Shown here: in pieces, positions 1,311 through 33,774 of the stretch
Position numbering within the stretch: position 1 is the first letter of the stretch
How the letters are laid out: every line of letters starts with the position of its first letter
Source of the DNA: Cerasicoccus sp. TK19100
GTDB lineage: Bacteria > Verrucomicrobiota > Verrucomicrobiia > Opitutales > Cerasicoccaceae
Direction of reading: 5' to 3'
DNA length: 64,000 nt
Assembly (NCBI RefSeq): GCF_027257155.1
Contig: NZ_JAPWDU010000004.1
Coordinates: forward strand, 186,001 to 250,000
Made by a program: the position numbers and the translations under genes
The notes under the pieces: generated by a model
Told to the model about the DNA's origin: nothing
What the model saw: only the letters and a program-made list of their open reading frames with translations
Database searches by the model: none

Positions 1311-1358
1311 ATGATGCCTACTGCGCTTTTCAATGTCGCTTTTAAGCGCCTACGTGTA

Positions 1359-1532
1359 ACTTATTCGTTTGCGTTGGCTACTTATTAATTTTTGTCCTTA
1401 ATTAATTTACTGTCGTCTATGACTTATTTTTAAATGTCTGCGTCTTATTCTAAATTATTCGATACTTATTGAATATTGGTGGTAACTTATTGATTTTCAT
1501 CTATAACTTATTTAATTTTGTTGGGACTTAAC
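1359..1532. repeat. 21-bp-periodic ACTTATT heptamer array
   Basis: The heptamer ACTTATT starts at exactly 1359, 1380, 1422, 1464, 1485 and 1506. One-base variant TCTTATT lies at 1443, and a weaker ATTAATT occupies the expected slot at 1401. A partial copy, ACTTAAC, is at 1526. The start-to-start distance is 21 bp throughout (20 for the last partial unit), so all copies face one side of the DNA helix. The 14-bp spacers differ from one another. The array ends 17 bp before the ATG at 1550. It looks like a multi-site protein-binding array or an unusual promoter, not a CRISPR. Confidence 0.9.
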
Positions 1533-1549
1533 TTTGCCATAGTATCATC

Positions 1550-2224
1550 ATGCCGATTACTTCACCACAGTCATATCTTCCTACTATTAATGAGTTTATT
1601 GCTCATTGGGAATTGGTGAATGAGGCGCTGCCTCCGACGCAGCCATTGACCGTCGCCAATGGGCGCGGGATCAATAATCTGTGCGCCTTGGCCGCCACAT
1701 TGCTTGCCACGATCGACGCGGTGGAGGCTGCGCTCGTCGGGATGCGCACCGAAAGCGCCCAGGTCCGCGAGCTGAAGCGCGCGTTGAACCGTCGATTTGC
1801 CGAGTTCGCGCATCTGATCCGCGCATTGGACACCGCAGGCGTGTTTGTGAACTCCCTGCCCAGCGCGCCGAAGGTCAATCACATCGCCAGCAAATTTCGT
1901 GAGCCCTTGTTGAAGGCCGAAAATATCTGGGCAAGCGCCAATGCCGAGCTGGGCGTCATTGAACTCGCCAATGGTTACGGCCTGGCCGACTTTTCTGCCG
2001 ATCTCGCCGCGTTCCAAGGTGCCGAAGCCCTCTGGCTCAAGGCCAAGGCCGAAGTGAAAAGTAAACGCGCCGACCGCAACGGCCTTCAGCGCGACATTTA
2101 CCCGATTCTCCGCGAGTATCGCCGTGTCGTGCAGGGCCGGATGAGCGCCGACAGTGTCTATGTCGCCAGTCTGCCCAAGCTGACCTTATCCAAGCGCCGC
2201 TCGAAAGCCGTTGCCGCCGGGTAG
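1550..2224 (+). CDS. Unrecognised protein with internal duplication
   Basis: I do not recognise this 224-residue protein. It has no signal peptide, membrane segment or Cys cluster and looks mainly helical. It consists of two diverged copies of one unit of about 105 residues. The first has W20, N24, ANGRG (36-40), a charged helix with L/R and then SLP (102-104). The second has W127, N131, ANGYG (140-144), a similar helix and SLP (207-209). The C-terminal tail is basic (KLTLSKRRSK). The start is the first ATG after the heptamer array; no clear Shine-Dalgarno sequence precedes it. It is a single-gene unit flanked by repeat-rich gaps. A nucleic-acid-related or structural role is possible but not shown. 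Confidence 0.8.
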   Translation: MPITSPQSYLPTINEFIAHWELVNEALPPTQPLTVANGRGINNLCALAATLLATIDAVEAALVGMRTESAQVRELKRALNRRFAEFAHLIRALDTAGVFVNSLPSAPKVNHIASKFREPLLKAENIWASANAELGVIELANGYGLADFSADLAAFQGAEALWLKAKAEVKSKRADRNGLQRDIYPILREYRRVVQGRMSADSVYVASLPKLTLSKRRSKAVAAG

Positions 2225-2595
2225 ATGCGCGGTGACAGGCTCGCGTTGCGCGGTGGCAGGCGCGGGTGTCGTGATGATAACAAGTGGTGGCGCGATGGTA
2301 GGTGTGGGTTTAACCTTGAAGGCCACCGAGAACACGAAGCCAGCGAGGCGCGTGGGCATCATGCGAAGATGCGCAGACGCGAAACCAACTGATTGAAGGT
2401 AGGACGGCGGATGAAGATGGTTGGAAGGATGATGTCGAAGCTTGTACGGCTGATTCCTTGGGGCCTTGGGGTCTTGGCGTGAGATAAAATTGGCTAAACT
2501 CGCGGTATTATTAGCCAAGCGCACGGTGAATTTGGCTAGGCTTGCGGTGAATGCGGCTGCCCGAACCTTCGTGGCCTTCGTGCTCTTCGTGGTTT
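2225..2595. other. Repeat-bearing gap without a credible gene
   Basis: This stretch contains CACGAAG/CTTCGTG REP-like sequence (about 2320-2380 and 2566-2600) and two related segments around TTGGCTAAACTCGCGGT (2490) and TTGGCTAGGCTTGCGGT (2533). Possible reading frames on either strand translate these repeats and have no protein-like composition. No terminator for either neighbour is obvious. Confidence 0.55.
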
Positions 2596-33339: not shown

Positions 33340-33438
33340 TTTTCATGGACTTATGGTAATCCAGCTTGAGGCTGATACATTAATCTTGAATATCCGTTGA
33401 CCTACCAACCGAAGCAACTGAGCCAAAATAAGAAAGCC

Positions 33439-33599
33439 CTATGCTGTGTTGTCGAAAAGCCTACTGGGGCTTTTTGAAAAAGACCTATGCTGTGTTTTGG
33501 AAAAAGCACCACTGTTGTTTCCTCAACATAGCCACTGTTGTTGCTCCGACATAGCCACTGTTGTCGACGCAACACAGCCTCGGGTGTTTTTCGCGGACT
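33439..33599. repeat. 23-bp-periodic repeat tract
   Basis: Units recur every 23 bp. CTATGCTGTGTT starts at 33439 and 33485 (46 apart), CCACTGTTGT starts at 33509, 33532 and 33555, and AACAYAG/GACATAG starts at 33525, 33548 and 33571. A TGTT core keeps the 23-bp phase through six of seven units. The tract ends about 175 bp before the giant gene's start. It could bind a regulator at multiple sites; it is not CRISPR-like because the conserved part is only 10-12 bp. Confidence 0.75.
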
Positions 33600-33774
33600 C
33601 TGGGGCACGATTTTGCGCGCAAGCCGCGGGCTTCAATCGCGATGTCCGCAGACAGTCGTTTTTTATCCGATAGAATAATTAGAGATCGACCTGATGCAGA
33701 AAGAATGAGAAAATAGGGATACAAACCCATCCATCAAATGGGATGAACAACCCTTCAACTGCAGCCAGCCTCCA

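Follow-up and report, generated by a model that had tools for sequence, protein, structure and literature searches.

We found that a gene encoding a 224-residue protein in the window (the whole 64-kb stretch of DNA analyzed) belongs to a protein family whose genes are, at most loci, preceded by an array of short words repeated every 21 bp. The conserved feature of these arrays is the 21-bp register and not the heptamer. ACTTATT is the word of the window locus only, and the words differ between most loci and between most paralogues. Regulatory DNA is usually recognized by its sequence, whereas distantly related genomes keep the spacing of these arrays and mostly not the sequence. At a probability of roughly 0.4, we favor the explanation that each array is a self-specific operator- or centromere-like site, bound cooperatively every two helical turns, most likely by the product of the adjacent gene.

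An earlier sequence-only reading described the array of the window locus (L001) as seven copies of ACTTATT, one of them changed, at a 21-bp step that stops 17 bp before the start codon at 1550. Both parts of that description held. There are six exact copies (at 1359, 1380, 1422, 1464, 1485 and 1506) and, searching both strands, none elsewhere in the window; the slot at 1443 reads TCTTATT, one change from ACTTATT. The distance from the end of the array to the gene is 17 bp. A weak and a partial copy had also been noted. The weak copy is at 1401 (ATTAATT, two changes from ACTTATT), and the partial copy (ACTTAAC, starting at 1526) exists and lies one base off the 21-bp grid.

What is remarkable about the ACTTATT copies is their spacing, not their number. 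By itself the count is unremarkable: 2.25 copies are expected in the window, and 3 of 100 shuffles of the window contained at least 6. We then counted any 7-mer recurring in phase, at spacings of 8-60 bp, in the region 1301-1549. Six in-phase identical 7-mers occurred in 0/2000 dinucleotide shuffles of this region, in which the maximum was 3. Upstream of the window gene, lag 21 was the best of 56 lags and its score was matched at any lag by 0/200 shuffles. The pair ACTTATT-14N-ACTTATT has three exact occurrences in the host genome (5.07 Mb), all inside the window array.

Because 21 bp is seven codons, a tandem heptad in coding sequence was a candidate explanation. It was ruled out, as 10 of 12 arrays have a stop in every frame (L006 and L022 each have a stop-free frame). 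The window array has at least three stops per reading frame.

The features of the window locus are listed in Table 1. The weaker periodicity 3' of the gene may not be a non-coding array; our filter counted it as within a long open frame. By eye, there is more 21-bp periodicity 3' of the gene at about 2227-2300, in words unlike those of the upstream array. Inverted GC-rich intergenic repeats with a REP-like look, GGAGGGCGACGCT...GTCGTCGCC, lie at 1030-1200 of the window, between a DnaJ-like gene and the array.

Table 1. Coordinates of features at the window locus (positions in the window)
Feature	Position	Strand	Basis or description
Upstream 21-bp array	1359..1532	+	7-mer positions, shuffle test
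Extent of lag-21 self-similarity	1315..1562	+	126-bp windows at least 0.50, best 0.58
Family-protein gene, 224 aa, ATG start	1550..2224	+	ORF; AlphaFold2 mean pLDDT 91.6
First helical repeat, about residues 1-105	1550..1864	+	Predicted helices 6-26 and 41-93, FxAHW motif
Second helical repeat, about residues 106-215	1865..2194	+	Predicted helices 113-134 and 145-197, YR motif 190-191
Weaker 21-bp periodicity, other word	2390..2567	.	3' of gene; lag-21 identity 0.52, rank 1 of 56 lags

We found that the array accompanies the gene family. When the upstream DNA of other members was read in 21-bp lines, the majority of loci had an array of their own. In the first nine loci, lag 21 was the top of 55 lags in eight and tied with lag 42 in the ninth, and every lag-21 score exceeded the best of 100 shuffles. 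The larger test (56 lags, 200 shuffles) covered 38 loci with at least 200 bp of upstream DNA. Lag 21 ranked first in 22/38 and was equalled at any lag by 0/200 shuffles in 25/38. Under a looser test (equalled by at most 1/200 shuffles) the count was 30/38, with L022, L038, L062, L063 and L064 added. The sequence-only reading had tied the array to the gene and proposed a check of homologues for phased repeats; as these counts indicate, most homologues do have lag-21 arrays. A lag-21 identity threshold of 0.50 was reached by 21 of the 38 loci. L075, which has a run of N, failed the upstream test and had lag-21 places of 0.66 and 0.75 in the place scan. Seven loci (L048, L049, L050 and L051-L054) are without a clear array, so the array is not needed for a family protein to exist.

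The set of 38 was defined as follows. L044 was left out of the upstream test (180 bp upstream); its array is visible by eye. We dropped L032 and L036 (5' end lost at a contig edge), L039 (a remnant), partial or weak matches (L056-L061, L065-L070, L074 and L076), matches without a fetched locus, and duplicates of the same place (e.g., L010-L021, L029, L031 and L034). L038 is not included in the table of proteins, in the tree or in the comparison of words.

Three controls addressed the 21-bp period. In the 500 bp downstream of the genes, lag 21 came first in 3/37 loci (L001, L053 and, weakly, L022) and second in 5/37. The surroundings of 20 loci, the window among them, came to 425 kb and contained 31 lag-21 places, of which 22 were at most 900 bp upstream of a family gene. 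Such a place was present in 17/20 loci, with none at threshold in L088, L094 and L095. The background sample totaled 864 kb and consisted of the window and 40 control stretches, each 20 kb long, drawn from three genomes. It contained seven lag-21 places at or above 0.50. Six were within long open frames, including the one at window 2390-2567, and the window array was the only one outside them. We also observed a second lag-21 stretch in genome G1191 (L086:2031-2266), about 8 kb from the family gene and in front of an unrelated gene. That gene encodes 430 aa from an inner start, open frames partly overlap the stretch, and no relative of the gene was found in the other 200 genomes of the draw.

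The 21-bp step is strict within arrays. We set array limits by eye for the register, palindrome and word tests. Across 19 arrays, mean self-match was 0.50 at multiples of 21 bp (m=1-7, to 147 bp) versus 0.25-0.28 at each offset of 1-10 bp. A slip of about one turn (10 bp) was not detected in these 19 arrays; slips beyond the eye-set limits would escape. A 14-mer scan showed more than one phase in L003. That every copy faces the same side, as had been proposed, agrees with a step of two turns. Since one-turn slips were undetected, same-face placing may not be the whole constraint.

Conservation within the 21-bp unit is clustered. The ten most conserved adjacent columns scored 0.65 versus 0.52 for the remainder (32/39 loci with a segment), compared to a difference of 0.05-0.08 for random columns. 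This test pooled both arms, blurring the words.

We compared words within and between arrays. Within an array (half versus half, at zero shift), the median similarity was 0.63 in 30 arrays, ranging from -0.13 (L028) to 0.93 (L006). Between loci the mean was 0.30 (best of 42 alignments) and the 95th percentile was 0.44. By eye, no word was common to all loci. Among six pairs of proteins that are 60-76% identical, words were above the 95th percentile in two (L026/L043 and L008/L009) and not in four, and unrelated pairs were equally alike in word (L042/L075, 0.56; L004/L073, 0.55). Four of 30 within-genome pairs exceeded the 95th percentile, all of them in G006 (L005/L008, L005/L009, L004/L009 and L008/L009). 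The words of G006 are thus not fully private, as these are 4 of its 15 paralogue pairs. Similarity of word and similarity of protein were weakly correlated (Mantel r 0.116; 29/2000 permutations as high; 30 loci). The earlier view that only the heptamer and its phase are kept is supported for the phase and, across loci, not for the heptamer, the words being mostly locus-specific.

These measurements bear on the possibility that the array is a tandem satellite with a 21-bp unit, generated by slippage or unequal crossing-over, bound by nothing, and hitch-hiking with the gene. In its favor, words turn over quickly, and in L045 the central copies are near-identical and the edges decayed. Satellites are harder to reconcile with a single period beside one gene family across several phyla, with clustered conserved columns and undetected slips, and with control stretches in which every lag-21 array fell inside a long open frame. 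We regard this explanation as improbable.

Some arrays contain words in both orientations. Inverted arms with centers 10.5 bp apart were found in 6/17 loci (L005-L009 and L033) in a scan run without a shuffle control; they were weaker in L035 and L022, and were seen by eye in L044 and L075. In L001, L028 and L030 the scan picked up ordinary palindromes too. Palindromic units were considered as the cause of the inverted arms and were ruled out (3/24 at p<0.05).

It might be that the array is transcribed to short guide RNAs, in the manner of CRISPR or TIGR-Tas, with the protein as the RNA partner. TIGR-Tas is the closest array format among the systems that we compared. According to the part of the published description available to us, TIGR arrays have 8-12-nt repeats and 9-nt spacers; the repeats are of two kinds that alternate, and the system uses box C/D motifs and a protein with a Nop domain (PMC12045711). 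The arrays described here resemble them in having a short conserved core, short variable spacers and a single adjoining gene. In contrast to TIGR-Tas, no Nop match was found in 17 family members (E <= 0.1), and alternation is absent from most loci: lag 42 exceeded lag 21 in just 5/30 array loci (L022, L030, L043, L055 and L062), where alternation is possible. The regular spacing of repeats is also CRISPR-like. Unlike CRISPR, the conserved core is far shorter and orientation is mixed in some loci; no Cas match was found in the 17 members. Among the 25 listed of 40 PADLOC families in 118 neighboring frames there was no Cas entry. A search of the arrays of 20 loci against 4227 Rfam families at gathering thresholds gave no match inside any array. 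A step equal to two turns of B-DNA, inverted arms and the lack of an all-locus word by eye also argue against a guide RNA, and we consider it distinctly unlikely that the arrays encode one.

The 224-aa protein is a member of an unnamed family with two duplicated helical hairpins, usually followed by a fibronectin-III (FN3) domain. The internal duplication suspected from the sequence was borne out when profiles of the two halves, built from 28 of the 38 members, were compared by hhalign (probability 99, E 4.6e-18). A typical full-length member has about 320 residues, modeled as two hairpins, each of a short and a long helix, and an FN3-like domain (pLDDT 93.2). The FN3-like domain matched pectate lyase PelI (Foldseek E 1.7e-4). 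Most members thus end like bacterial FN3 proteins; the window copy stops short of this C-terminal domain, and for the N-terminal double hairpin no named family was found. Fold searches with the modeled N-terminal part gave a best Foldseek E of 0.11 and a best VIA Z of 9.3 (McpS ligand-binding domain). These matches fall in the range of generic helical bundles and none is clear. Such a weak match proves neither novelty nor prior knowledge of the fold.

Sequence searches gave no convincing named family for the members in Pfam, NCBIfam, PHROGs or PADLOC. The weak matches were to one member each, including restriction and methyltransferase models in PADLOC (E 0.016 and 0.036). The window protein had no Pfam match and one weak NCBIfam match, far under its cut-off. 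No DNA-binding family was matched by 17 members in Pfam (E <= 0.1) or by the window protein in Pfam and NCBIfam. A sequence search of the PDB returned TAL-effector matches (E 0.011 to 0.2) over 27 residues at the FN3 linker, which we judged to be chance. The window protein has a pI of 9.7, and 18/38 family proteins are acidic (pI <= 5.7).

The acidic proteins and the lack of a matching DNA-binding family would suit a general host factor, for example a nucleoid protein or a polymerase-associated one, that recognizes the array by its phase or shape, with the gene product merely being controlled and having some other job. Different words at most paralogues in a genome, together with a conserved phase, are also consistent with such a factor. 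Reading of shape alone, however, needs neither a word maintained within each locus nor clustered conserved columns, and it sits poorly with 800 kb sampled from three genomes, where arrays of this kind were not found except in long open frames. We think that a general host factor is unlikely to be the explanation.

Based on these results we suggest that each locus may be a self-contained unit of one gene and its own upstream DNA array, with oriented words on a 21-bp register. A DNA-binding factor would bind cooperatively along one face of the DNA, with one word occupied per two helical turns. Once bound, it would control the gene or build a nucleoprotein assembly, in the way that ParR acts on parC and Rep on iterons. 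The binder is most likely the product of the adjacent gene, since this is the only gene found to be common to the loci, and the gene may then be autoregulated. A single sequence-specific host factor is unlikely because most paralogues of a cell have different words. Spacing between neighboring protein molecules would set the register, and the word would drift with the protein, keeping paralogues from cross-reacting. By standard geometry, a 53-residue helix measures about 80 angstrom and 21 bp of DNA about 71 angstrom, so it is conceivable that a rod-like protein tiles the DNA. The sequence-only reading suggested a protein that polymerizes along the array. The encoded protein may do so, with the reservations that 18/38 members are acidic, that sequence searches matched no DNA-binding family and that the N-terminal fold has no clear match.

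We hold our confidence in the self-specific array at the level given above because of the 18 acidic proteins and the lack of a recognized DNA-binding domain. Further points count against it. If the helical face were the sole constraint, slips of one turn should be tolerated, and none was seen; the second lag-21 stretch of G1191 precedes an unrelated gene; the N-terminal fold has no clear match; seven homologues lack a clear array; and words stand out from background in only two of the six close protein pairs, while some unrelated pairs and some paralogues of G006 have similar words. A broader proposal is more doubtful, and we offer it tentatively: that the loci form a class of self-specific array-protein units over several phyla, in which the two-turn register is invariant and word and protein change together to give several largely orthogonal assemblies in each cell. 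If true, the specificity known from plasmid centromeres and iterons would have a counterpart on chromosomes, based on a fold without a known DNA-binding relative. If the arrays are bound by the local protein, they are a natural set of array-protein pairs and a test case for the evolution of DNA-binding specificity. If they are not, they expose a strict, unexplained constraint on upstream DNA. In either case, lag-21 self-similarity in front of the gene is a rule for finding further members.

Known systems resemble these loci in part. In plasmid replicons, iterons are repeats specific to the replicon, spaced by about two helical turns and adjoining the gene for the protein that binds them. The arrays are similarly locus-specific and at two-turn spacing beside a gene. 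Unlike iteron systems, there was no Rep match in Pfam (17 members and the window protein) or NCBIfam (window protein only), no relative was found in the plasmid collection, some arrays have inverted arms, and there can be several copies per genome. ParR-parC is the closest known system in the way it works. In the portion of the source available to us, parC has direct repeats upstream of the system's genes, repeats of 10, 11, 17 and 20 bp are named, homologous systems differ in their repeats, and each ParR homologue binds the parC of its own system (PMC9426499). The family loci share the upstream direct repeats and the system-specific words, apart from the partly shared words of G006. They cannot be placed in ParR-parC on account of the protein and the partner gene. 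ParR is typically a ribbon-helix-helix protein, whereas 17 members had no such Pfam match (E <= 0.1) and the confident family models have long helices plus FN3. ParR-parC has a ParM partner gene, whereas no non-family gene was found in more than 3/20 loci (blastp, 1e-8). ParR-parC is usually plasmid-borne, whereas the family loci, with a period of 21, are on contigs of up to megabases.

The defining protein of no known system was found among the systems compared. The accessible part of a paper on conflict systems with FNIII and helical proteins contained no match (PMC7159879). Neither the family nor the arrays were described in the literature that we searched, in part, with most subscription journals and bioRxiv outside the search. 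We rate the array class and the family as new because neither matched anything found; how they work may still turn out to be familiar.

We examined the neighboring genes. From reading the sequences, we take the genes flanking the window locus to be DnaJ-like and molybdopterin oxidoreductase-like. No other gene family was common to more than 3 of 20 loci in the blastp comparison, which misses divergent families: even of the 20 family genes it connected no more than 15. Conflict-type genes were found near several loci, encoding NB-ARC-TPR (L082:10578-12746), TIR-TPR (L092:31-2463) and TPR-rich (L079:5592-8063) proteins, each located 5' of the family gene and pointing the same way, and a Type ISP restriction enzyme (L078). 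Sub-threshold neighbors were nSTAND-HEAT (L081) and SIR2-like (L089). These neighbors could indicate that the array serves to trap or sense the DNA-binding proteins of invaders, as a decoy or a tripwire coupled to the conflict genes beside it. Against this, the TPR group is present in only 3/20 loci, the flanks of the window gene are presumably of the two kinds just named, and restriction genes occur in the control set as well (118 neighbor frames versus 111 of 157 listed control frames). For the last reason we do not claim an enrichment of defense genes, and we consider a decoy very unlikely.

By eye, TPR genes seem also to be beside L025 and L039. The latter (L039:1501-1638) is a remnant FN3 domain, directly 3' of a TPR-like gene, with the rest of the family gene missing. 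A DUF3800-VII RNA (Rfam RF02967) is located at L045:452-540, outside the array and close to the family gene, and was the sole match of the Rfam search; from its sequence, a gene near this RNA is presumably DUF3800-like. Three same-genus genomes without a gene match have different sequence after the DnaJ-like gene, and so no clean empty site was found.

The family is sparsely distributed. The genomes that carry it are labeled Verrucomicrobiota, Armatimonadota and, once, planctomycete. The labeled genomes are MAGs, so misplaced contigs are possible, chiefly in the single planctomycete case. The host genome has two paralogues of the window gene (39-42% identity), and a genome of the same family has six. 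With the center genome counted, matches were found in 2/54 relatives, 2/372 genomes of the order and 3/387 of the phylum (one of them a remnant). One verrucomicrobial family had matches in 6/68 genomes, two of them weak or remnant. In the phylum of the Armatimonadetes MAG, 21/201 genomes had a match, 6 of them partial or weak only; in that of the planctomycete-labeled MAG, 1/294 had a match, which was the MAG itself. A tree of 38 proteins has long branches (2.4 changes per column for L051-L054 and 2.3 for L048-L049). Family relatives were not found in viral contigs (pattern-based), the plasmid collection or phages, and we set aside phage or plasmid cargo as an explanation.

A separate class of arrays, with a period of 23 bp, is present in the host genome. 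There were 8 in the 400 kb sampled and one in the window (33403-33642; the others are L098, L103, L104, L105, L111, L112, L113 and L114), all outside long open frames, and none at the same threshold in samples from two other genomes. By eye, words of these 23-bp arrays, such as CTACGTCCATGGACGTAG or GGCTTTTNGAAAACANAGC, recur between loci.
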